From NCBI RefSeq assembly GCF_000381125.1, contig NZ_KB905935.1, positions 62,001 through 126,000 of the forward strand: a stretch of DNA of 64,000 bases, read 5' to 3'. Both the position numbers and the translations under genes were made by a program. The notes under the pieces are model-generated. The model had not been told where the DNA came from. It made no database searches and was given only the letters and a program-made list of their open reading frames with translations. This document shows, one piece after another, positions 26,466-40,764 of the stretch. How positions within the stretch are numbered: position 1 is the first letter of the stretch; the number at the start of each line of letters is the position of its first letter. Source of the DNA: Caldimonas manganoxidans ATCC BAA-369 (lineage in GTDB: Bacteria > Pseudomonadota > Gammaproteobacteria > Burkholderiales > Burkholderiaceae_C).

Positions 26466-28316
26466 TCACAGCGGTCTGATCGAACCGGGTACGACGCGAG
26501 CCGTGGCAAACTCCTGCAGCAACGACATCACGTACGGGTCATTGAGGATTTCGGCCTCGGCCGCCTGTTGGCGCAGGGCTTTGGCCTGGGCCTCCCGACG
26601 TGCGGGGGTGTCGTCGGTGGGGCCGACCGACAGCTCCAGCACCACCGGCTGACCCAGCACCTCCGACAGTGCCGCTTGAAGCCGGGCTTGCGATGCCGAC
26701 GAGGCCAGCGTCTCGCGCTCGACCCGAAGTTGCCAGCGCGCCGGTTGGGCCGCATCATCCACCGCCACGCATTGGGCCTGCAAGGCCAGCTCACGCACCA
26801 GTGCCGTCACCAGCCCCCGCTCGATCATCTGGGCCACCAGGGCGTACCAACGGTCCGCCACAGCGGTATCAGCGACGGGGCTCGGCGCCGGCGTGGCCGC
26901 CGTCGCCCGCACTTCGTGGCTGACGCTCGGCGGTGGCAGCCCTGGACTCGCCACTTCGGCCGCCCGCGGCGCACCCGCCCCCCACGATGGCAAGGTGTCG
27001 GCCTGGGGTGCCGCCGTGACGGGCGCCATGGCGGCGGCAGATGCCTGTTGGGGCCCCTGGGACGCCCCGCGCGGCCCGCGCGCCGCTGCGGGGCGCGGCA
27101 GCGCCGCATCAGCCGGCTGGGGCACGGCAGAAGCGGCGCTGGTGCGCGGCGGCACGCTGGCGCGAGCGGCCCCTTGGCGCTGCAAAGGCATCGCCGCCGG
27201 GCGGGTAGAGCCCGGCATGGCCGGCCGGAATGCCAACATGCGCAACAAGGCCATCGTCAGGGCGCCGTATTCGTCGGCGGCCAAGCCCAGCTCATGGCGC
27301 CCGTGCAGCGCGATGCTGTAGAACAGTTGCGTGTCCTCCGGCGGCAAGGCTGCCGCCAGGGTCTGCAAGGTGGCATGGTCGGGATCGTCGGTGGCGCCCG
27401 CCTGGGGCACCACTTGGCGCACGGCCAGCTCTTGCAACACGGCGGCCATCTCCTCCAAGGCCCCGGCCGGCGACAACCCCTGCATGCGCATCTCATCGAC
27501 GAGGCTCAGCAGCGAAGGCCCATCACCAGCGGCCAAGGCCTCGATGAGGCGGAACACATGGCCGCGGCCGACTGCGCCGAGCATCTGTCGCACACTGGCT
27601 TCGGCCAAAGCCCCGGAACCGTAGGCAATGGCCTGGTCGGTCAGCGACAAGGCGTCGCGCATCGAGCCGCGCGCGGCGCGCGCCAAAAGCCGCAGCGCGC
27701 CCGGCTCGGCTTGGATGCCTTCGGCAGCGAGCACCTGTTGCAAGTGCTCCAACACCGTTTGCGGGGCCATCGGACGCAGATTGAACTGCAAGCAGCGCGA
27801 CAGCACCGTGGGCGGCACTTTCTGAGGGTCCGTGGTGGCCAGCACGAACTTCAGGTACTCCGGCGGCTCTTCCAAGGTCTTCAACATCGCGTTGAAGGCA
27901 TGGTTGCTGAGCATGTGCACTTCGTCGATCATGTAGACCTTGAAGCGCCCCACCACCGGTTTGTAGACGGCTTGATCGAGCAGTTGGGCAATCTCGTCCA
28001 CGCCCCGGTTGGAGGCCGCATCGAGCTCGACATAGTCGACGAAGCGACCGGCGTCGATGTCCCGGCACGGCGGGCACACCCCGCAGGGCGTGGCCGTGAC
28101 ACCGCCTTGCCCGTCGGGGCCGACGCAATTGAGCGACTTGGCCAAGATCCGCGACACCGTGGTCTTGCCCACCCCCCGCGTGCCGGTAAAAAGATAGGCA
28201 TGGTGCAGGCGCTGCTGCGTCAGCGCATTGGACAGGGCCTGCACCACATGGCCCTGGCCCACCATCTGCTCGAAGGTGCGCGGGCGGTACTTCCGGGCCA
28301 GGACGAGGTAACTCAT
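26466..28316 (-). CDS. dnaX: DNA polymerase III subunit tau (and gamma)
   Basis: Clamp-loader ATPase of 616 residues. Residues 1-240 form the AAA+ domain, with Walker [13 protein letters not shown] near 40-51, a zinc module with [20 protein letters not shown], and the [24 protein letters not shown] Walker B region. Domain III follows to about 370, then an Ala/Pro-rich linker (about 370-500) and a C-terminal domain that would contact the polymerase. I saw no A6G-type slippery heptamer in the linker, so a frameshifted gamma form is not obvious. It starts 30 bases after the MFS gene on the same strand. Confidence 0.95.
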
Positions 28317-29731: not shown

Positions 29732-29823
29732 TGGTGCCCCGGGCCGGACTCGAACCGGCACGCCTCCTCTCGGACGGCGGCGGATTTTAAGTCCGCTGCG
29801 TCTACCACTTTCGCCACCGGGGC
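29732..29823 (-). tRNA. tRNA-Leu (anticodon UAA)
   Basis: On the minus strand the acceptor GCCCCGG (29823-29817) pairs with CCGGGGC, followed by A and an encoded CCA (29734-29732). The anticodon stem GCGGA/TCCGC encloses the loop CTTAAAA with anticodon TAA. A long variable arm (GCCGTCCGAGAGGAGGC) marks a class II tRNA. The T loop is GGTTCGAGTCC. The gene is 92 bases including CCA and lies 44 bases after the pseudokinase gene. Confidence 0.96.
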
Positions 29824-29867: not shown

Positions 29868-32192
29868 TCAAGCCTTCGTGCGCTGCACAGCCACATAGAG
29901 CTTGCGCAGTTCGTCGCGCAGGCTGCGCATCAAAGACAAATCGCGGTCCGACAACCGGAAGCCATTGGGCTGCGCATGGTCGGCATACAAGGCAGCGGCC
30001 GTCTGTTGGCCATCGCTGATGGGCAGCAGCATGAAGGCCGGAGCCGCCACATGGGCGCGAAACCAGGCCGGCAGCTTGGCGGCCAAACCCGGCACGGTGG
30101 CATCGCGAATGAGCGAATCGGCCCCCTTGGCACACAGGGCACTGAAGGCATCGGCCGCATCGTCCCGCGGGAATCGGAACTGAGCCCCCCAGGCGGTATC
30201 GAACTGCCCCCACACCTTGCGCGCTTGGAACCAACCGCTGGTGGGCTCGAGTTCGATCAGTGCCACGCAGCGGCAGCCAAAGTGTCGCCACACGGCCTGC
30301 CCCACGATGTCCAAACAGGCCTCCCGCCCTTCCCCGCGCCGCAGCGCAGATCGCAGCTGGGCGAGGGCGGCCGACAAGGGATGAACCGGTGAAACGTCCG
30401 CTGTCGTCAGACTTGCTTTGACGGGGGGCTCCAGACCCGAGCGCAGCGTGGCAGTTCCACTGGCGGGGTCGCGTCGCATCGCCGCAGCAGGAGGAGCCGC
30501 CGTGCCCGCCGCATCCCAAATGTCCTGGGCCTGAACGCCCAGTGCCGCGGCGTACTGGTCGAGCCAGCGCAACGTCTGATCCGACACCTCGCGAGCGGCA
30601 TCGCGCTTGCGCGTGCCTGCCACGACATTGCCTACGCCACCGAGCAGGCGAAACCAATCGCTGCGTCGTTGCGGCATGCGCACGGGGCTGCCGGGCTGCG
30701 GCACACGCATCACTCGGAGCAATTCCTCCGGCAACCCCCAGGTGCGCCCGACGGCCACGCCGAGGTCCTCGTAACTCAAGCCCAGCACGGCCTGAGCGGC
30801 CTGTTCTTCGCTTTGCCCTTGGCTGCGCGCCAGCTGACGCACTTGCGCGGCCTCGTCGGGCAGATGGTGCTGCACGAGCACCCGACCCAGGTTTTGCATC
30901 AGCGCGGCGATGTAGCTCTCTTCTTCCGCGGTCTGCGTGGGGCACAAGCGCGCGGCGACCCGCCCGGCCACGCGGCAGCGCGCATATTCGTCGGCCAGCG
31001 CCTCGCGCTGGGCGCTGTCGCGCAGATCCTCCAGCTGCGGCAAGGTGCCTGCCATGTCACGCAAGGCCTGCACCCCCAGCAGCGCAATGCAACGCGACAC
31101 CGTCGTGATGCTGCCACCGCCCACCGAGCTGAAATAGGCAGCATTGGTCATGCGCAACAACTTGTGCACCAGGGCCACGTCATCGAGCACGGCACGCGCG
31201 ATTTCGTCGAGATTGACGGCTTCGGCACCCGCCAGCCGCCGCACACGGCGCACCGACTCGGCCTGCACCGGCAGATCACCGCGCTGGGCCAGGCTGGCCA
31301 GCAGGCGCTGCAAAGTGCGCTGGGCCAGCGTATCGCCGCTGCCGTCGAGCAAGGCGGGGGTGAGCCAGTCCTGCAAGGCTTGACGCAGCGCTTGCGCACT
31401 CTGCGGTCGTTGCCGTGGATCGCGTGCCAGCGCGGCGTGCACGATGGAGCGCAAACCCGCTTCGCCAGGCTGGTCCAACACACCCGCCGGCACGCTCAGA
31501 TCTTCCGATTGCAGCCGCTCTACCGCACGACGCGGCTGTGCATCGGCCACGGCCGGCCGCCCCACCAGCAGCGCATACAACAGCAAGCCCACCCCGTGCA
31601 CGTCGCTGCGCGCATCAGCGCGCATCCCTGCGGCCACCTCCGGTGCCAGATACAACCCGCGCGCGGTGTTCAGCCGCAAAGGATCAATGCTTCGCCCCGC
31701 CGGCTCGAACGCGCCGAGCAAGGCGCGGCCCGTGATGTCCAGCCATACGGCATCGGGCCGCACGCGGCCATGCACCATCCCGGCCTCGTGCACATGCACC
31801 AGGGCATCGAGTACGCCGATGGCCACCAGCACGGCCTGACGCACCGGCATGGTCTCGTGATCGGCCAGCCATTGCGACAGCACCATGCCGGCAAACGGCG
31901 CGCACACCAACACCGCCCGATCGGCTTCGATGCGAGCTTCGACGGCCTGCACGATGTTGGGATGGCTCAGCGCGCATTGCGCCCGCGTGACCTCGCGCCA
32001 CGTCGCCGGGGTCAGGCCAGGCAGCGGTAGCTGCTGCCAAACCTGAAGCAACCAGTCCCGCTCGGTCGTCACGTCGCGCGCTTGCCACCAGGCGCTATCG
32101 ACGTCGCTGGTCATCAGGCGAACCAACTGATAGCGCCCGAGCGATGCGTTGGGGGTCTCGGTATCGACGGTGCTCACATCAAGTCTGGGCAA
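29868..32192 (-). CDS. Pseudokinase-HDOD-GAF protein
   Basis: Signalling protein of about 774 residues, paralogous to the next upstream gene. The N-terminal kinase-like domain (about 19-290) has lost every catalytic motif: no glycine-rich loop (MTSDVDSAWW), Gln50 where the ATP-binding Lys should be, HGRVRPDAV (141-149) in place of HRDLKPxN, and GAF (160-162) in place of DFG. An HDOD domain follows (about 300-510; VALVHKLLRMTNAAYFSSVGGGSI) and a C-terminal GAF-like domain (about 620-770). No membrane segment is seen. There is no ATG near the domain start; TTG at 32192 or GTG at 32177 must serve. It lies 97 bases after the active paralogue, probably in one operon. Confidence 0.82.
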   Translation of the reverse strand: MPRLDVSTVDTETPNASLGRYQLVRLMTSDVDSAWWQARDVTTERDWLLQVWQQLPLPGLTPATWREVTRAQCALSHPNIVQAVEARIEADRAVLVCAPFAGMVLSQWLADHETMPVRQAVLVAIGVLDALVHVHEAGMVHGRVRPDAVWLDITGRALLGAFEPAGRSIDPLRLNTARGLYLAPEVAAGMRADARSDVHGVGLLLYALLVGRPAVADAQPRRAVERLQSEDLSVPAGVLDQPGEAGLRSIVHAALARDPRQRPQSAQALRQALQDWLTPALLDGSGDTLAQRTLQRLLASLAQRGDLPVQAESVRRVRRLAGAEAVNLDEIARAVLDDVALVHKLLRMTNAAYFSSVGGGSITTVSRCIALLGVQALRDMAGTLPQLEDLRDSAQREALADEYARCRVAGRVAARLCPTQTAEEESYIAALMQNLGRVLVQHHLPDEAAQVRQLARSQGQSEEQAAQAVLGLSYEDLGVAVGRTWGLPEELLRVMRVPQPGSPVRMPQRRSDWFRLLGGVGNVVAGTRKRDAAREVSDQTLRWLDQYAAALGVQAQDIWDAAGTAAPPAAAMRRDPASGTATLRSGLEPPVKASLTTADVSPVHPLSAALAQLRSALRRGEGREACLDIVGQAVWRHFGCRCVALIELEPTSGWFQARKVWGQFDTAWGAQFRFPRDDAADAFSALCAKGADSLIRDATVPGLAAKLPAWFRAHVAAPAFMLLPISDGQQTAAALYADHAQPNGFRLSDRDLSLMRSLRDELRKLYVAVQRTKA

Positions 32193-32289
32193 TGAAGGCG
32201 CGCGACATGCCCCGATTTGACCATGATCGTCCCCCCATCGGACCGCAAAACTGGCGGGGGTTTGACCGGTATCTCCGGCAGCAAGGTGC

Positions 32290-34692
32290 TCAGTGAGCGA
32301 CTTGCTTGAAAGCCATCACGGCCTGGTTGCGCAAGGTCCGCAGCAAAGACAGCTCGCGCTCATCGATCGAGATCGAGCCGCTGCGGGCCTTGTCTGCGTA
32401 TATCAGCCCCAGCGGCGCCTGGCGCAGCATCAGTGGCAAGAGCAAGAACGTTGGCGCATCGACCTGGCGGCGATACCACTCGGGCAGGCGCTCGGCCAGA
32501 TTGGGCACGCGAGCATCGGAAATCAGAGTATCGACCCCCTTTTTGCACACCAGCGCAAACAAATCGGTGGCCGTGGGCGAGAGGTCGATGCGAAACCGTG
32601 CGGCCAGCTGCTCGGCATCACGCCCCAGGCCGTAGCGGCCGATCATCATGCCGCTGCGGGCATCACGCAGGCACAGAAGCACATGGCCAAAGCCCAGCGA
32701 GCGGTACATCGTCTCCAGGATCATGTGCAGCACCTCGTTGAGCTTGCAGTTCTCGACGAGGGCGTTGCTGACGTCCTGGATGCCAGCGGCCAAGCCCTGC
32801 GCCGCAAGATCGTGTGTCGGCTCGGCCACATCCTGGAGTTCTCCAGCTTGCGTTTGCACCACGGTGTCGAGGTCGTGCTCGCCGAGTCCGTCGCTTCGCT
32901 GCAAGCCCTGCGCAGGCCCCCGAGTGTCGAGCAAGCGCTGGCTGCGGCTGCCCGCAGCGACCTGGATATCCAGCGCCGGCACCATCTCCGCCATGCGCTC
33001 GCGCGAGCGTTGCACGGCCTCCAGCACATCGCGCTCGGCCAATTCCAAGGCCGCCCCGTACCGAGCGGCCACAGCCTTGAGCGCTTCGACGTGGTGCGCA
33101 CGTTCCAAGTACAGCACGGCATCGGCCAGCTCATTGGCCGCACAGGCCAGCAAGCGCAGCCTTTCGGTGGGCACACTGGGCTTTTTCACCGGCGCATCGG
33201 CGGCCAATTTGCGCATGCTGGCTTGCAGCGCCTGCGGCAAGCCCCAGTGACGGGCCACGCCGAGCCCCAGCTCTTCGAAGCTCAGCCCCAGCACTTGCAC
33301 GGCCGCTGCCGACTCGTCGAGTCCCGAGCCCCGGCCGGCGTGCATCAGGCGGTGGATCTGCTCGACTTCTTCCGGAAAGTAGAACTGAACCAAGGTACGC
33401 CCGAGGTTGTGGAACATGGCCGCAATGAAGGCCTCTTCGGCCTCCCGGCCGCTGAGGGCCAGCTCACGGGCCACGTTGCCGGCCATGAGCGACCGCAGAT
33501 ACTCCTCCTTCAGTGAGGCTGCGTGGGCCTTGTCCTGCATGTGCTCCAGCATCACGAGCGACAGCGCCAAGTTGCGGATGCCTGCAAATCCCACGAGTGC
33601 CACCGCCCGTGTGACCGTGCTGATGCTGCCGCCACCGGCGCTGCGGTAGTGCGCCGAGTTGACCAGGCGCAACAGCTTGTTCGTCAAAGCGACATCCTTG
33701 AGGATCTCGTTGGACAAGCCATGCAAGCTTTCGTGCTCCGAGGCCGCCAGGCGCTGGATGCGCGCCACCGCGTCGGTCAGCGCCGGAAAGTCGCTCTTGT
33801 GGCGCATGCGACGCATCAAGAATTCCAGTGTGGCATGCCCAGCGACTTGGCCACCGGTGTCTTTCGGCGTGAGCCAAGCCTGCAAAGCAGCCGCCAGCTC
33901 GCCAGCACTGGCGTAACGCACGCTCGTCTCACGCGCCGTGGCCCTGTGGACGATGGCCCGCAAAGCGTCGTCCACCGGATGGGGCAGCTGCGCCGGCAGG
34001 GCCACGTCCTCGTGCGTGAGACGGTGCAAGGCCCGATACGGATCGGACTCACGCACGGCCGGCACGCCCACCAGCATCTCATAGAGCACCAAGCCGGCGG
34101 CGAACACGTCGGTCTGCACCGTGGCCGGCAAGCCCTGCGCCAACTCCGGGGCCATGTAGCCCGGCGTGCCGACCAAGGCGTCCTGCACGGTGCCCTGGCC
34201 TTGATTCACCGCAATGCCGAAATCCATCACACGGGCCCGGCCATCACGGTCTACCAAGATGTTGGAAGGCTTCAGGTCGCGATGGATCACGCCGGCCCGA
34301 TGGGCATGCTCCAGTCCCTCCAACACCCCGAGCATCAGGCGCACCGCCTCGGCTGCCGGCATGGCGCCATGCTCTCGCAGGCGCTGCGACAAGGTCGGGC
34401 CTTCGACCAGCTCGAACACCAGATAGGGGTGGCGATCGTGCACATCGGCCTCGAACAGCGGCACGATGTGAGGATGCGTCAGGCGAGCCACCGCCCGCGC
34501 TTCATGCAGCCACTGAGTCAAGGTCTGACCGTCGCTGGCCTGCGCGCGGTGCAACTTGAGGGCGACTTCCCGATCCAACCGCGGGTCGAACGCTTTCCAG
34601 ACCGCACTCTGCCCCCCCTGCCCGAGCAGTTGGCGCAGTTCATACCTCCCCAAGCGACGAACGGGTGGATGGGCGGTGGTCGGGGTTGGCAT
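32290..34692 (-). CDS. Ser/Thr protein kinase fused to HDOD and GAF domains
   Basis: Predicted active Hanks-type kinase of 800 residues, without membrane helices. The kinase domain (about 15-275) keeps the ATP loop GQGGQSAVW (24-32), Lys46 in VALKL, Glu64 in the C helix, HRDLKPSN (137-144) and DFG (157-159). The HDOD domain (about 290-500) contains VALTNKLLRLVNSAHYRSAGGGSI and EEAFIAAMFHNLGRTL; such domains lack the full metal-binding HD set and usually act as signalling scaffolds. A C-terminal GAF-like domain (about 645-795) may bind a ligand. It precedes the pseudokinase paralogue. Targets and input are unknown. Confidence 0.9.
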   Translation of the reverse strand: MPTPTTAHPPVRRLGRYELRQLLGQGGQSAVWKAFDPRLDREVALKLHRAQASDGQTLTQWLHEARAVARLTHPHIVPLFEADVHDRHPYLVFELVEGPTLSQRLREHGAMPAAEAVRLMLGVLEGLEHAHRAGVIHRDLKPSNILVDRDGRARVMDFGIAVNQGQGTVQDALVGTPGYMAPELAQGLPATVQTDVFAAGLVLYEMLVGVPAVRESDPYRALHRLTHEDVALPAQLPHPVDDALRAIVHRATARETSVRYASAGELAAALQAWLTPKDTGGQVAGHATLEFLMRRMRHKSDFPALTDAVARIQRLAASEHESLHGLSNEILKDVALTNKLLRLVNSAHYRSAGGGSISTVTRAVALVGFAGIRNLALSLVMLEHMQDKAHAASLKEEYLRSLMAGNVARELALSGREAEEAFIAAMFHNLGRTLVQFYFPEEVEQIHRLMHAGRGSGLDESAAAVQVLGLSFEELGLGVARHWGLPQALQASMRKLAADAPVKKPSVPTERLRLLACAANELADAVLYLERAHHVEALKAVAARYGAALELAERDVLEAVQRSRERMAEMVPALDIQVAAGSRSQRLLDTRGPAQGLQRSDGLGEHDLDTVVQTQAGELQDVAEPTHDLAAQGLAAGIQDVSNALVENCKLNEVLHMILETMYRSLGFGHVLLCLRDARSGMMIGRYGLGRDAEQLAARFRIDLSPTATDLFALVCKKGVDTLISDARVPNLAERLPEWYRRQVDAPTFLLLPLMLRQAPLGLIYADKARSGSISIDERELSLLRTLRNQAVMAFKQVAH

Positions 34693-34777: not shown

Positions 34778-37700
34778 TTATTTCCCCGCAGGCTCGACTT
34801 CCACCAACCGTCCGTCTCCGGTGATGAATGCCGCACGCACCGGCCGAGAGGGGTCGCCCGCCTGCACGGCACGCCGATACCGTTCCAGCTGCATCCGCAA
34901 GGCCGGGTCGTCCTCGGGGCGGAACTCGGTCTTGTAGTCCAGCACCCACCATCGCTGCCCATCGGGCTCCCGGCGCAACACCAGCCGATCGATACGACCC
35001 GGACGGCCATCGACCACCACCGGCACCTCATTGCCGGCCCACAGCAGCGTCTCGCCCCCCAACAACGCAACAATGCGTGCATCGGCCAGCATGCGCCGCA
35101 CCACCTCTGCTGCGGCCCTCGCGGTCCCCTCGTCAGCGCCGAGCTCTTCGGCCGCACGCTGCACCAGCGCGTCCACGCGGCTCGGCACCAAGCCAGACGG
35201 TACGGCCAACCACTCCAGACAACGGTGCACCACTTCCCCCAGTCGCGCGCCCTCGGTCGATCGCAGTGCAGAAGTGGACTCGATGGCCAGCTGGGCTTGG
35301 CGATGCAGACTCGGCAAACGCCAGACGCCCACCTCGGCGGCCACGCTTTCCTGCGACGACTCGCCGCGCCCCGCAGCCGGCTCCCACGGCACACACACGG
35401 CGGCCAACCGCGACCACCAGCTCTTTCCGTCTTGCCCCAGATGAGGGGCACTGGCGCTGATCACGAGCTGCTGGCGTGCACGTGTCATCGCCACGTACAA
35501 GCTGTTCATCTCCTCGCGCGCGCGCGCGGTGCGCTCCAAGGCCATCGCCTCCACCAGGCTGGGCGCAGGCTGCCGCTCGTCGGCCACGAACGCAAAGCAA
35601 CGCGGCTGCGGCGCCTCGGCCGGCCAGTCCACCAAGACGGTGCCGCTGTCGTGGCGATCGGCACTGCTACGACGCTCCGGGTCGGTATCGATCAGGAAGA
35701 CCACACGGGCCTCCAAGCCCTTGGCCCCGTGAATGGTGAGCAGCTGGACCGCCTCGGGGGCGCCGTCCAAGGAGAATTTGGGCGAATGTTTGCGCAGGGC
35801 TTGCACGAACTGATGGGGCGTGGCGTAGCGACCACCGTCGAGCTCCAGCGCACAGGACAACAACGCCTCCAAGTGTGCGATCACCGATGGGCGCAACTCC
35901 GGTGGCACCCGTTGCGCATACCGGGCCAACACGTCACCCTCGGCGTAAATGCGGTCCAGCAAATCGTGCGGCGGCAAATGGCGGGCAGCCTCGGCCCAGC
36001 CCGGCAAAAGCGCGCGAGCTCGTCGCAGCGCCGGCCCTGGCAGGTCGTCCAGCGTGCTGGAGGCCATCAGCGCCTCCCACCAGCCCCCCATCTGGCGCGC
36101 GCGGCCGGCCAGCCAGACGAGTTCCTCGTCATCGGCGTCAAAAAGCGGAGACCGCAACGCCTGGGCCAGCGACAACGCATGACCGGGGGAGACCAAGGCA
36201 TCCAGCAAAGCCACGAGATCGCGCACCTCCAGCGCATCCATCAAGGCGTGTTCCTCGGGGCTGGCGCAGGCGATATGCCGCTCGCGCAAGGCTCGGGCGA
36301 CCCAGCCCAGCGGTGCGCGCCGGCGCGCCAGCACATGGATCTCTCCTGGGGGCACCCCCTCGGCCCGCACCAGGTGCTCGATGGCTTGCGCCACGGCGCG
36401 GGCTTCCTGTGCCCGCCAGGGTTCCTGCTCCTCGTGGCGCGACTGCGTCAAGCTGTCACGCCATGCCGACTCGTTCGGCTCGATCCGCGCTTGCCGTTCG
36501 GGTCGCTCGATGCGCGGCAGCGCACACACCCGCCCGGCCCAACCCTTGTCTCGGTGCTCGGTCGTATGGGGCCGAAAACCCTCGAAAGCCCCTTCGGCTT
36601 GCGCCTCTTCGAACACCACTTTCAGGGCATCGATCACCGCTTGCGCATTGCGTCGGGTGTGGTCGCACGCCAAGACCGAGCCGCCCAGACCCTGCACCAC
36701 CAGGGTTTTGGCCGCCTCGAAGACCCGGGGTTCAGCCCGACGGAAGCGGTAGATGCTTTGCTTGGGATCACCCACGATGAACACCGCCGGCGGCCGCCGC
36801 CCGCTTTGGCCGCCGCCCGCACCGGCATAAGACGACAGCCACTGAGACAATGCTTGCCACTGCAGCGGGTTGGTGTCCTGGAACTCATCGATCAGAACCT
36901 GACTCACTCGGGCATCCAAGCGCTCTTGCATCCAGGCCGCCATCGCGCCATCGCCCAGCAGCCTCAGGGCACATCGCTCCAGGTCGGCCATATCGGCCAG
37001 GCCCCGTTGCCGCTTCACCGCCCCGTAAGCCTGCAGCAGCACCCTGCCCAAGCGCACCAGACGTTGGTGCTCCCGGTGGGCGATCTCCTGAGCCATCCCC
37101 TGTTGGATCTCGTTCAGCCAAGCCACGGCATCGTCCAGCCCTGGAGCCTGGAGGTGCTTGCGCAGCGAGCCCGACTGGGTGAACAAAGCCGCGCGCACCG
37201 CATGAAATGCCGCCTGGTCATCGGACAAGGACAGCGCCTGCTCCAGCGCCAGGGCGGCCTTGCGCGGCGTGGCGTTTTTCTGCGCGCCCAAAGCACGGGC
37301 CACGGCCTGTAGCACATCCCGCACGGCCGCATGCCGCATGCGTTGAGCCGGGTGCTCCAGCCCTGCAAATTCGGCCCGCCACTGCGCGGCCGCCGGCACG
37401 CTGGCGGCCAACGTGCCGGCGCCGTCGGCCAGCTCGAACTCCACACGCCTGTCGATCAAACCCAGCAACCACTGGCGCACCCGCGTCTGAGAATGGTCTC
37501 GCATCAAGGCCGCCAAGTCGTCACGCAAGCCCGGATCCGCGTGCACTCGGCGCAACCATTCCAGCCAGGTCGGCCCCTGCAATTCGGCAGTGTCCTCGAG
37601 CAAGCGGGCCTGCGGCACCAAGCCGAGCTCGTCGATCACGTGCAGGGGCGCCGCCCGCAGCAGCTGGGCAAACCAGGCATGGAAGGTGCGGACCTCCACC

Positions 37701-38098
37701 TGCTCGCCGGACTCCAACAAGCGCTCGTACAACCCTCCCAGGGTCGCCGCTTGCCGGTGTGCCTCAGGCTCGCTCAGGCCTCGCTCCACCAGCGCCTCGA
37801 CCCGAGCGTCCTGGCCCGCCAGCGCAAGCTCAGCCAGCCACTCCATCAGCCGGGCACGCATTTCCGCAGCCGCCTTCTTCGTGAAGGTGATGGCCAAAAT
37901 CTCGCGCGCGGGCACCCCGTCGAGCAAGGCCCGCAGAATGCGCGACACCAACATCCAAGTTTTGCCCGCGCCGGCGCAAGCCTCCACGACCACGCTGCGC
38001 CTGGGGTCGCAGGCCTGCGCATAGAACGCCTCGCGGCTAACCCGTTGCCCGTCGATGTAATAAGACGGTGCATCGGCATGCCCCACGTCCCCCCTCAT
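34778..38098 (-). CDS. addA: AddA-type helicase-nuclease (UvrD-like helicase with RecB-type nuclease)
   Basis: Double-strand-break resection enzyme subunit of 1106 residues. It has UvrD-family helicase motifs: Walker A EACAGAGKTWMLVSRIL near 38-54, TFTKKAAAEMRARL, Walker B LIDEFQDTNPLQW, GDPKQSIYRFRRAEP, LLTIHGAKGLEARVVFL and LYVAMTRARQQL. The C-terminus carries the PD-(D/E)XK nuclease motif VLDYKTEF. The start ATG at 38098 overlaps the addB stop (ATGA). A longer frame from 38368 is rejected because it runs through addB and adds a Gly/Arg-rich stretch. A 14-base alternating CG run at 35515-35528 lies in the gene. Confidence 0.92.
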   Translation of the reverse strand: MRGDVGHADAPSYYIDGQRVSREAFYAQACDPRRSVVVEACAGAGKTWMLVSRILRALLDGVPAREILAITFTKKAAAEMRARLMEWLAELALAGQDARVEALVERGLSEPEAHRQAATLGGLYERLLESGEQVEVRTFHAWFAQLLRAAPLHVIDELGLVPQARLLEDTAELQGPTWLEWLRRVHADPGLRDDLAALMRDHSQTRVRQWLLGLIDRRVEFELADGAGTLAASVPAAAQWRAEFAGLEHPAQRMRHAAVRDVLQAVARALGAQKNATPRKAALALEQALSLSDDQAAFHAVRAALFTQSGSLRKHLQAPGLDDAVAWLNEIQQGMAQEIAHREHQRLVRLGRVLLQAYGAVKRQRGLADMADLERCALRLLGDGAMAAWMQERLDARVSQVLIDEFQDTNPLQWQALSQWLSSYAGAGGGQSGRRPPAVFIVGDPKQSIYRFRRAEPRVFEAAKTLVVQGLGGSVLACDHTRRNAQAVIDALKVVFEEAQAEGAFEGFRPHTTEHRDKGWAGRVCALPRIERPERQARIEPNESAWRDSLTQSRHEEQEPWRAQEARAVAQAIEHLVRAEGVPPGEIHVLARRRAPLGWVARALRERHIACASPEEHALMDALEVRDLVALLDALVSPGHALSLAQALRSPLFDADDEELVWLAGRARQMGGWWEALMASSTLDDLPGPALRRARALLPGWAEAARHLPPHDLLDRIYAEGDVLARYAQRVPPELRPSVIAHLEALLSCALELDGGRYATPHQFVQALRKHSPKFSLDGAPEAVQLLTIHGAKGLEARVVFLIDTDPERRSSADRHDSGTVLVDWPAEAPQPRCFAFVADERQPAPSLVEAMALERTARAREEMNSLYVAMTRARQQLVISASAPHLGQDGKSWWSRLAAVCVPWEPAAGRGESSQESVAAEVGVWRLPSLHRQAQLAIESTSALRSTEGARLGEVVHRCLEWLAVPSGLVPSRVDALVQRAAEELGADEGTARAAAEVVRRMLADARIVALLGGETLLWAGNEVPVVVDGRPGRIDRLVLRREPDGQRWWVLDYKTEFRPEDDPALRMQLERYRRAVQAGDPSRPVRAAFITGDGRLVEVEPAGK

Positions 38099-40764
38099 GC
38101 CAACGCCTCCTCGCCCATCGAGCCATCCCAATGCGCCTTGCGGCACAAGCCGGCCGCGGCGCAATGCTCGCATGCCGGCCCCTGCCCCAAGGGCGGCAGC
38201 GGCGCCCCCGCTGCCAAACGGGTGAAGTCCTCGGCCAGTCCTGCCCGCAGCGCCGCCGCACTGTCGGTCACTCGTGGATGCTCGATCCACTTCACTGGCG
38301 TCTCCAGTGCCAAATAGCCAGCCTCCAACCCCTCCAATTCCTCCACCGCCCCGACGAGGCCTTCCCACAAGGCCGCATAGAAGGCCAGCTGCGTATCCTC
38401 CAGCGGCCGACGCACACGGGCTCGCAAGCTATCGGCCGAAGACGTCTTGTAGTCGATCAACCGGGCCCGGGCCCCACCGTGCTGCTGCATCAGCCGGTCC
38501 ACCCGATCCAGCCGACCTTTCAAATCGGCCGGCCCTGCACCAGACATCGAAACAGCCCACTCGCCGCGCTCGAAGCGCCACCCCTGAGCCTCTTGAGCAT
38601 GCAGCCAGTCCACATAAGCCGGGGCCAAACGCTCGAAATACAACCACTCGGCCAAAAAGGCCGCATCGTCCAGGCCCAGTGCCTGCTGTTGCTGTCGCCC
38701 CATCGCCAGCAGTCGATCGACATCGGCCTGCCAATCGTTGCTCGGTGATGCGCGCGACACATGGAATGCATGCAGCACCCCGTGCAGCCACTGGCCCAGG
38801 TCGCGCCGGTCCGGCGCATCATCGAGCACCTCGACCTCCTGCAGGCCCAGCATGTGCAGCGCAAAAAAACGATAGGGACAGGCTCGCAAGGCCTCATAGG
38901 CCGACGCGCTGACCTTCGATGGCAACAAAGCCGGCGCCGAAGGCCGCGTCGGCCGCACGACACGCACGGGCAAGACCTGGCGCACCAACCCATCGGTGGC
39001 CGCCGCCCAGTCGCGCCCGGCGCGGCGCAGCGCCAGGCGCAGGGGCTCCAGCAGCGGCGACACCTGCAGCGGCTCGCCCTGATGCGTGCGCCGCCATGAC
39101 AGGCTCAAGCGCGGGTGGGTGAGCACATGGCGCAGCGCCAGCCGCTCGCGCTGCCAGAGCGCTTGCCCCGTGGGCAGCCCCAAATCACGGCGCTCGGCCT
39201 CACTCAAGCAGCCACCGACACTGGCTGCAGCCCCCAGGTGCGTGTGATCGCAGCCGGGCAAGACCACCGCCGCAAAGGGCCGCAGCATGCATCGCGACAG
39301 CGGCGCAATCACCACCTCGGCGGGCTCCTGAGGCGCCGGTCGAAACGACACCGCCTCCAGCACTTCGTCCACCCAGGCCCGATACTCCACGCGGTCGCAC
39401 ACCAATTGCGCGGCCTGCCTGCCGTAGGCACCGGCCCCAGCCTCCCCCTCGTGCAAATGCAAGGCCTGCAACAACTGGGCTCCTGCAGGATCGCGCTGCA
39501 GGCGCTGCCAGGCTCCGCAACGCTGCAACCCTTGCACGAGAGCCTGCTGCCATCGAGCGAGAAGCGTCTGCGTCAGACGCGCCAGCGGTTCGCGCACCTC
39601 GCTCCAAAACTGCCATAGCGACCGCGCCGCTTCCGGCAGAGCCTGCAGCCGCACCTGCGCCACCGAAGCCGCTTGCTGTCGGCGCAGCGCCTCCTCCAAC
39701 GCCACGAGCCCCGCCTCGTGCCCTTGAAGGTCCACGAACCCGCTCTTGAGCCAGTCCAGCAGTTCATCCGTGGACGCCCCGGCCTCGCACAGCCGCAGCA
39801 GCCCCATCACGCATGCGCCCGCCCGGGTCGTGGACAGCTTCCAGCCCGTCTCATCATGAACGCGGACCTTCTCCCGCTCCAACAAGGCCCGAATGCGGCG
39901 CACCAGCCCGCGGTCCTGGGCCACCAAGGCCACTGGCACCTCGCCGTCGGCCACATGACGCAAAACCCGGGCTGCCGCCACCTGGGCCTCCTCCTCGGCG
40001 TCCCGACACGCCACCAAGGACGGCACCTGCCGCATGTCGGTGATCGCGGTCCCTTCGGGTGGATTCACCTCCAGCCACAGCGCCGGACCAGGAAATTGCG
40101 CCACGACCGATGCCATGAGCGCATCGACCTCGCCGGCCTGCACGACCGCCCAAGCCGCCGGCCGCACCCGGAACAACGCATCGGTGGGCAGCGTGTCGCG
40201 CTGGCGTGCCCAGGCCCAGGCCACCCGAGCCAAGGCCCCCTCCACCTCACCGGCGGCCACCTGAGCCGCCAGCCGGCTTTCGAGCCGCTCCTGCACACGA
40301 GCCCACCAAGCCTCCCGCAGATCGGGAGGCTGACAAGCCGCCCCCTCCATCAGCTGATGGGTCGTCTCCACGAGCAGACGCACCCAGTGCCGGAACATCA
40401 CTACATCGTTCTGCGCGGTCCATCGGGCCCAGGACTGGCTGGCCAGCAAAGGCGCCGCGGCCAAGCGGTCGACCAGCGCATTGCCGGTTGGCAACGCCTC
40501 TGGGATGTCCTGCGGCGGCCCCAACGCGGCCGCCAGCGTCTGCGTGGTTTCGAACCGGGGCATCCATCCGGCACCGACCTGACTGGCCCAAGCTTCGCGG
40601 GCCAAGGGCAGATGTTGCGCAAAAGGCACGATCACCCACAGGTCACGCGCCGCCATGCCGTGCCGTTCGAGGAAGCGACGCAGCGCCAAGATGACGTCCG
40701 CCCAGGACTCCGGTGCGCTGGGCAGCTGGCATCGTTCGAGCGAAGTCGGCATCGAAGAAGACAT
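38095..40764 (-). CDS. addB: AddB-type nuclease subunit with Fe-S cluster motif
   Basis: Partner of AddA, 889 residues, with an inactivated helicase-like N-terminus and a C-terminal PD-(D/E)XK nuclease. The nuclease motif LIDYKTSSADS lies near 780. Four cysteines likely bind a 4Fe-4S cluster that staples the nuclease domain: one in LRACPYRFFALHML (near 655) and three in the C-terminal CEHCAAAGLC. The start ATG at 40764 has no strong ribosome-binding site; a second ATG lies 12 bases on. It is divergent from trxA with 131 bases between, and translationally coupled to addA. Confidence 0.9.
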   Translation of the reverse strand: MSSSMPTSLERCQLPSAPESWADVILALRRFLERHGMAARDLWVIVPFAQHLPLAREAWASQVGAGWMPRFETTQTLAAALGPPQDIPEALPTGNALVDRLAAAPLLASQSWARWTAQNDVVMFRHWVRLLVETTHQLMEGAACQPPDLREAWWARVQERLESRLAAQVAAGEVEGALARVAWAWARQRDTLPTDALFRVRPAAWAVVQAGEVDALMASVVAQFPGPALWLEVNPPEGTAITDMRQVPSLVACRDAEEEAQVAAARVLRHVADGEVPVALVAQDRGLVRRIRALLEREKVRVHDETGWKLSTTRAGACVMGLLRLCEAGASTDELLDWLKSGFVDLQGHEAGLVALEEALRRQQAASVAQVRLQALPEAARSLWQFWSEVREPLARLTQTLLARWQQALVQGLQRCGAWQRLQRDPAGAQLLQALHLHEGEAGAGAYGRQAAQLVCDRVEYRAWVDEVLEAVSFRPAPQEPAEVVIAPLSRCMLRPFAAVVLPGCDHTHLGAAASVGGCLSEAERRDLGLPTGQALWQRERLALRHVLTHPRLSLSWRRTHQGEPLQVSPLLEPLRLALRRAGRDWAAATDGLVRQVLPVRVVRPTRPSAPALLPSKVSASAYEALRACPYRFFALHMLGLQEVEVLDDAPDRRDLGQWLHGVLHAFHVSRASPSNDWQADVDRLLAMGRQQQQALGLDDAAFLAEWLYFERLAPAYVDWLHAQEAQGWRFERGEWAVSMSGAGPADLKGRLDRVDRLMQQHGGARARLIDYKTSSADSLRARVRRPLEDTQLAFYAALWEGLVGAVEELEGLEAGYLALETPVKWIEHPRVTDSAAALRAGLAEDFTRLAAGAPLPPLGQGPACEHCAAAGLCRKAHWDGSMGEEALA

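Follow-up and report, generated by a model that had tools for sequence, protein, structure and literature searches.

Two adjacent open reading frames on the minus strand, here named gene A and gene B, were found in the window (the whole stretch of 64,000 nucleotides analysed, from Caldimonas manganoxidans ATCC BAA-369). As originally predicted, they are same-strand genes with colinear products, similar to each other at E 1.4e-120. Gene A (32290..34692) codes for 800 aa, with a Hanks-type Ser/Thr kinase domain of PknB/StkP type (aa 12-273, 33874..34659; Pfam Pkinase E 1.2e-48, also identified by Foldseek), an HDOD domain (aa 303-494, 33211..33786; Pfam E 1.1e-35) and a GAF domain (aa 651-795, 32308..32742; Pfam E 8.7e-5); the lysine, the glutamate and both catalytic aspartates are present. 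Gene B (29868..32192), located downstream, codes for 774 aa when read from a TTG codon. Pfam searches and residue reading identified in it a pseudokinase domain (aa 16-276, 31365..32147; Pfam Pkinase E 4e-15) in which the catalytic residues are lost, an HDOD domain (aa 307-496, 30705..31274; Pfam E 1e-29) and a GAF-like domain (aa 605-763, 29904..30380), the last recognised from a weak Pfam match, from relatives and from a structure model. All these domains are encoded on the minus strand.

The start codon of B is either TTG 32192 or GTG 32177, the latter agreeing with the N-termini of relatives. Measured from the TTG, the two genes are separated by 97 nt, with no translational coupling, and a promoter/terminator scan gave nothing above chance. 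A tRNA-Leu (TAA) gene (29732-29823, minus strand) lies 44 nt past the end of B. From their sequences, the flanking genes were named as an AddA/UvrD-type helicase and its neighbour upstream of the pair (34778-38368 and 38095-40764) and DnaX downstream (26466-28316).

The HDOD and GAF parts had been described as well conserved between the two proteins, which was half right: A-B identity was 42% for HDOD and 34% for GAF, as compared with 40% for the kinase part. The Pfam GAF family was found in 19/20 A proteins at E ≤ 0.1. In B itself GAF_2 reached only 0.069, below the Pfam cut-off, and 8/9 B proteins reached it at E ≤ 0.1, the best at 3.3e-7; the B model predicts an alpha/beta GAF-like end (aa 601-770, block pLDDT 72-91). 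No fused domain beyond kinase, HDOD and GAF was detected in B by Pfam.

The catalytic residues of A were read at the predicted positions (K46, E64, HRD at 137 and DFG at 157). Among full-length A frames these motifs are complete and conserved, with the lysine in 88/88, the glutamate in 87/88, the HRD aspartate in 86/88 and the DFG aspartate in 88/88, and from their completeness we infer that A is a working Hanks kinase. Its kinase domain can be aligned over the full length with PknB and StkP (StkP E 6e-45); in Foldseek, PknB/Stk1 chains share 31-35% identity with A and the best matches are PknB structures (TM by target 0.80-0.87). While the kinase domain is alike, A differs from these PASTA kinases by its C-terminal HDOD and GAF domains: no PASTA match was obtained for A by Pfam, and with the NCBIfam PASTA kinase equivalog NF033483 (cut-off 450 bits) A scored 263.7 and B 84.3 bits, both below the cut-off. 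In 14/20 A proteins Pfam also gave a weak match to TCAD9 (ternary complex associated domain 9), the best at 1.9e-5.

Genes of the A type are sparse across the class (9/185 genomes, two of these from this family). Degenerate-looking kinase domains were observed in several A relatives (L131 with HRN, L183 with HRR, L182, L189 and L202), and at five loci from family genomes (L204-L208) the A relatives consist of HDOD and GAF only (537-564 aa), without a recognisable kinase domain. From these damaged and shortened proteins, kinase loss seems to be recurrent in the A superfamily. One locus from another family of the order (L079, genome G049) carries two A-type genes in tandem, with the catalytic residues intact in both, which may resemble the state that precedes inactivation of one copy. 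A second tandem A-type pair was found at G603:C113:10826-15552.

The B protein had been described as devoid of all catalytic residues. Glutamine Q50 (codon 32043..32045, minus strand) indeed stands in place of the catalytic beta3 lysine (K46 of A), valine in place of the alpha-C glutamate and HGR in place of HRD, and the glycine loop is gone. The DFG motif is also lost, but the alignment places AFE (161-163) in its slot and not GAF, as first read. B thus shows all three pseudokinase losses, those of the beta3 lysine, the HRD aspartate and the DFG motif.

Gene B in Caldimonas and gene C across the family

The genus sample comprised nine Caldimonas genomes (in the broad GTDB sense), with strong B matches in Caldimonas caldifontis, C. 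mangrovi, C. tepidiphila and Aquabacterium sp. A7-Y. B was found in 9/9 genomes, as a full-length frame in 9/9, and its protein retained a Pkinase match in 9/9 at E ≤ 0.1, indicating that the kinase fold is kept. The beta3 lysine, the alpha-C glutamate, the HRD aspartate and the DFG glycine were each found in 0/9 B proteins and the first DFG aspartate in 4/9; the positions corresponding to K46, E64, the HRD Asp, K141, N144 and the DFG Gly of A are lost in all nine. The HRD slot reads HG[RCHQ] across the B proteins. Three residues are invariant and specific to B: Trp at 31, Ala at 70 and Gly at 138 (A numbering).

Another pseudokinase-HDOD protein, C, has no GAF domain and is encoded on the opposite side of A from B. 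A Pkinase match was obtained for 18/18 C proteins at E ≤ 0.01. The catalytic lysine was found in 0/61 and the DFG aspartate in 0/61 (one gap), and 12 further C proteins also have neither; the HRD aspartate is present in 57/61, mostly as H[RGHLQ]D (H-x-D), together with GLE/ALx and not GLW. C therefore shows two of the three pseudokinase losses (Lys and DFG), the HRD aspartate being kept. These residues were read in 73 (61 + 12) of the 82 genomes with C; genomes G084, G090, G128, G130, G136, G147, G235, G271 and G278 were left out.

A search with B against 250 genomes of the family gave a match at E ≤ 1e-30 in 122. The loci examined were the window and 100 others picked from the best matches, and so are not a random sample. 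Among these 101 loci, 56 had A with C upstream, seven A with B downstream, 29 A alone, five C alone, two B alone and two neither (L071 and L186). Among the 29 loci with A alone, four (L079-L082) belong to genomes of the order outside this family; L087 was scored as A alone although C is present there as two short frames. Thirteen of the 122 matching genomes, one of them with a strong match (G128), lay outside the fetched loci and were covered by the profile search.

With profiles, the 250 genomes gave A in 83, C in 82, both in 59, C without A in 23 and neither A nor C in 144. A occurred without C in 24 genomes, two of which are Caldimonas with B; the other 22 have A and lack both partners. Nine genomes whose A relatives have no kinase domain, their matches beginning only beyond profile position 200, are excluded from the A count, and the two Caldimonas self-matches and G113 from the C count. 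In 59/59 genomes with both genes, C is directly upstream of A on the same strand. The co-occurrence of A and C has an odds ratio of 15 (Fisher p 2e-19 over the 250 genomes, a statistic that ignores shared descent). A 4-nt overlap of the two frames, taken from longest-ORF starts, was found in 15/56 fetched C-A pairs and is a sign of translational coupling.

No C was seen in the nine Caldimonas genomes, and the exact A-B pair is restricted to this genus. Over 200 genomes from across the order, at least five belonging to the family, a search with the C profile gave only two matches at E ≤ 1e-100, both of them A proteins of the family. Whether the pair recurs in this order across Burkholderiales had been posed as a check, and it does so in a looser form: the A-B order belongs to a single genus, but A next to a pseudokinase-HDOD gene is a recurrent arrangement across the family. 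The module is both recurrent and separable, hence more general and less rigid than had been supposed.

Some C genes appeared interrupted. The gene is split at L087:4072-5855, and an internal stop lies within the C match of G094, G098, G170, G205, G263, G130, G084 and G090, some of these being draft genomes. This could be due to assembly error, to the match running on beyond the stop or to real decay.

Other genera show synteny at their A-C locus with the flanks of the window pair (the AddA-type helicase and its neighbour, and DnaX). B of Caldimonas occupies that same place, with an AddA-type gene upstream at 6/9 loci and DnaX downstream at 5/9, the flanks sometimes being short. At least one of A, B and C is present at 99 loci, where flanks are often short; an AddA-type helicase was found upstream in 25 of them, an HrpA-type helicase in 28 and DnaX downstream in 38, all named from their sequences. 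A functional tie to these neighbours was considered and discarded, since they are housekeeping genes that differ between genera; their presence was taken as synteny and not function.

Nucleotide pocket, dimer contacts and origin of B

Two residues of the catalytic spine (C-spine) line the adenine pocket of A: a beta2 valine packing on adenine (V31), which we take to correspond to PKA V57, and a beta3 alanine at what is presumably the PKA A70 position. The beta2 site is Val in 87/88 A proteins and Trp in 9/9 B proteins (W35 in the window, codon 32088..32090, minus strand). The beta3 site is Ala in 87/88 A proteins and Met, Leu, Val or Ile in 57/61 C proteins (Met or Leu in 45). The tryptophan should plug the adenine pocket of B, which, being filled, should therefore not bind ATP. 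As judged from these alignments, the residues that appear to occupy the nucleotide pocket differ between B and C. The retained motifs differ as well: the APE glutamate is present in 9/9 B and 2/61 C proteins, the HRD aspartate in 0/9 B and 57/61 C proteins.

A similar solution has been described for the pseudokinase domain of MviN from mycobacteria (family ActPs3), a PknB substrate in which a bulky residue completes the C-spine instead of ATP (PMC12599244). B would likewise be a bacterial pseudokinase with a bulky residue at the C-spine. MviN is an actinobacterial transmembrane protein of which the pseudokinase forms one domain, whereas B is fused to HDOD and GAF and encoded beside its catalytic relative A. 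MviN/ActPs3 proteins combine full motif loss with a hallmark deletion in the activation loop; B largely shows the motif loss.

Models of A and B were built from nine-row alignments and reached mean pLDDT values of 72 and 69, respectively. In the B model the N-lobe is of low quality (pLDDT below 50 for aa 20-51), and HDOD is partly poor in both models. The best 50 Foldseek matches of each model were kinases, PknB first; for the B model the TM by target to PknB was 0.70-0.77. PDB titles among the matches include PknB L33 and D76 mutants. PknB residues R10, L33 and D76, which we take to be dimer contacts, map in the alignment to R16, L39 and E81 of A. Of the two polar positions, R16 is kept in 7/9 B proteins and position 81 is E or D in 9/9, both being mostly kept in A and C; the hydrophobic L39 is Leu in 85/88 A, 0/9 B (two gaps) and 10/61 C proteins. 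On this mixed basis A may homodimerise in the PknB manner, and a canonical back-to-back A:B dimer is doubtful because L39 is lost in B.

The prediction that B is a duplicate of A was approached with separate trees of the kinase, HDOD and GAF parts (40-55 rows each, every fourth or fifth protein, the long rows L183 and L188 being left out) and with a combined kinase+HDOD tree (68 rows, every third A and C). B formed a single clade in every tree. In the combined tree B did not stand beside Caldimonas A, but holding the two together was not rejected with kinase+HDOD (p 0.086), GAF (p 0.33) or HDOD (p 0.18). The kinase+HDOD and kinase trees separated B from C, although one clade was not rejected (p 0.19 and p 0.38, respectively), and the HDOD tree joined B and C, two long branches, with support of 93/88 (95 in the quick tree). 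The trees thus reject neither descent from A nor descent from the C line: B may have arisen as a separate copy of an A-type gene, or it may be kin to C and have retained its GAF domain.

Relation between the kinase and its pseudokinase neighbours

We give even chances to the reading that A and B form a functional kinase/pseudokinase unit in which the pseudokinase serves as a docking or allosteric domain. Most likely, the pseudokinase fold of B would be a nucleotide-independent docking or allosteric domain that ties the HDOD (and GAF) output of B to A. The kinase would sense through its GAF/HDOD part, become active as a PknB-type dimer and then phosphorylate B or control it by conformation, the output being carried by the HDOD part of B. 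Physical contact, the direction of control, a ligand and the output are all proposed parts of this model; gene adjacency alone is no proof of contact. HER3, STRAD and KSR are eukaryotic dead relatives that act as allosteric partners of catalytic kinases. The Caldimonas pair is alike in setting a catalytic kinase with a dead relative, here a predicted partner; its domain context differs.

The partners are also found apart. Among the nine Caldimonas genomes, seven have A and B and two have B alone: G001, a genome of one contig in which an AddA-type helicase adjoins B at the place that A takes in other genomes, and G007 (C. tepidiphila). A was probably lost twice, since these two genomes do not group in the B tree. 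As for the 23 family genomes with C and no A, C of G106 is at a contig end and A could be cut off, and G065, G190 and G271 have a kinase-less A relative elsewhere in the genome. Since B or C can persist in genomes lacking A, the pseudokinase-HDOD protein must do something by itself, and other kinases can probably serve it. An obligate form of the heteromeric unit originally predicted is contradicted by these genomes. The broader idea of a regulatory partner stands in part, with a conserved pseudokinase and the recurrent adjacency in its favour and strict co-dependence given up. Rare co-occurrence of the genes had been named as evidence against the unit; A was found with B in 7/9 genus genomes and with C in 59 family genomes, B alone in 2/9, C alone in 23 and A with neither in 22.

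These separations also suit a different explanation, possible but on the whole unlikely, in which B and C act by themselves as HDOD(-GAF) proteins for output or scaffolding. Their kinase fold would be a retained structural cap or a protein-binding platform that does not depend specifically on A, and the gene neighbourhood would be left over from duplication and shared expression. The kinase fold is dispensable in the superfamily, as L204-L208 are HDOD-GAF only, and the slowest-evolving part of B is its HDOD domain. Over six genome pairs, dN/dS of B was 0.17-0.42 for the kinase part, 0.11-0.33 for HDOD, 0.12-0.53 for GAF and 0.30-1.03 for the linker, rough values, as dS approaches or exceeds 1 for some pairs. 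Within B, GAF and the pseudokinase domain diverge at about equal rates, and HDOD more slowly than both in 6/6 pairs. The kinase part of A gave 0.08-0.20, that of B evolving faster. The same values show, however, that the pseudokinase domain of B is under purifying selection, which argues against a mere cap free of A, as do the single order and strand of C and A in 59/59 genomes and the 4-nt overlaps in 15/56 pairs.

AMPylation, glutamylation and non-canonical phosphotransfer are known for a few kinase-fold proteins. That B keeps such an unusual catalysis, or nucleotide binding, is very improbable: other bacterial pseudokinase families are predicted to be non-canonical ATP binders (PMC12599244) and most C proteins keep the HRD aspartate, but K46, E64, the HRD Asp, K141, N144 and the DFG Gly are gone in 9/9 B proteins and a tryptophan stands in the pocket. 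The last explanation, that B is an ordinary duplicate of A decaying in one genus, its kinase domain being lost as in the degenerate or kinase-less A relatives (L131, L183, L182, L189, L202 and L204-L208), is hardly credible and largely refuted: local decay, which had been named as one finding that would overturn the prediction, is ruled out by the absence of the beta3 Lys and the HRD Asp from all nine genus genomes, each with a full-length frame, and by purifying selection. The invariant B-specific residues, together with dN/dS well below 1, indicate that the function of B is maintained.

The kinase/pseudokinase-HDOD module apparently has not been described; a search of open-licence literature found no system joining HDOD with a kinase or pseudokinase, as the original prediction had supposed. 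The bacterial pseudokinase families reviewed are GLW, CP1, DLHK, DYD and ActPs1-3, of which GLW, CP1 and DLHK occur in proteobacteria (PMC12599244). Like B, all seven have the Hanks fold with catalytic motifs lost. Their descriptions set B and C apart from them, and a text search of that review found no mention of HDOD; in the GLW family, GLW replaces HRD, a motif read as HG[RCHQ] in B and mostly as H[RGHLQ]D in C. Among HDOD proteins, SadB, GsmR, HdpA and I2285 regulate motility, biofilm formation or attachment (PMC6543031, PMC9040570), by a mechanism said not to be established (PMC6543031). They share the HDOD output domain with A and B, and the consulted portions of these papers mention no kinase or pseudokinase domain for them.

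Bacterial pseudokinases are many but almost untested, according to the review (PMC12599244). Few have a predicted partner, and here the gene order names one. Genomes missing one member of the module offer natural controls, the invariant pocket-plugging residue gives a direct prediction, and the part of HDOD in the output of Ser/Thr signalling could be tested in harmless bacteria. A bolder proposal, which we hold tentatively, is that Burkholderiales possess a signalling unit in which a dead sister encoded alongside exerts allosteric control over a Hanks kinase-HDOD-GAF protein, B and C having sealed the ATP pocket separately. If true, bacteria would have an equivalent of STRAD or HER3, the partner having been replaced at one conserved locus.
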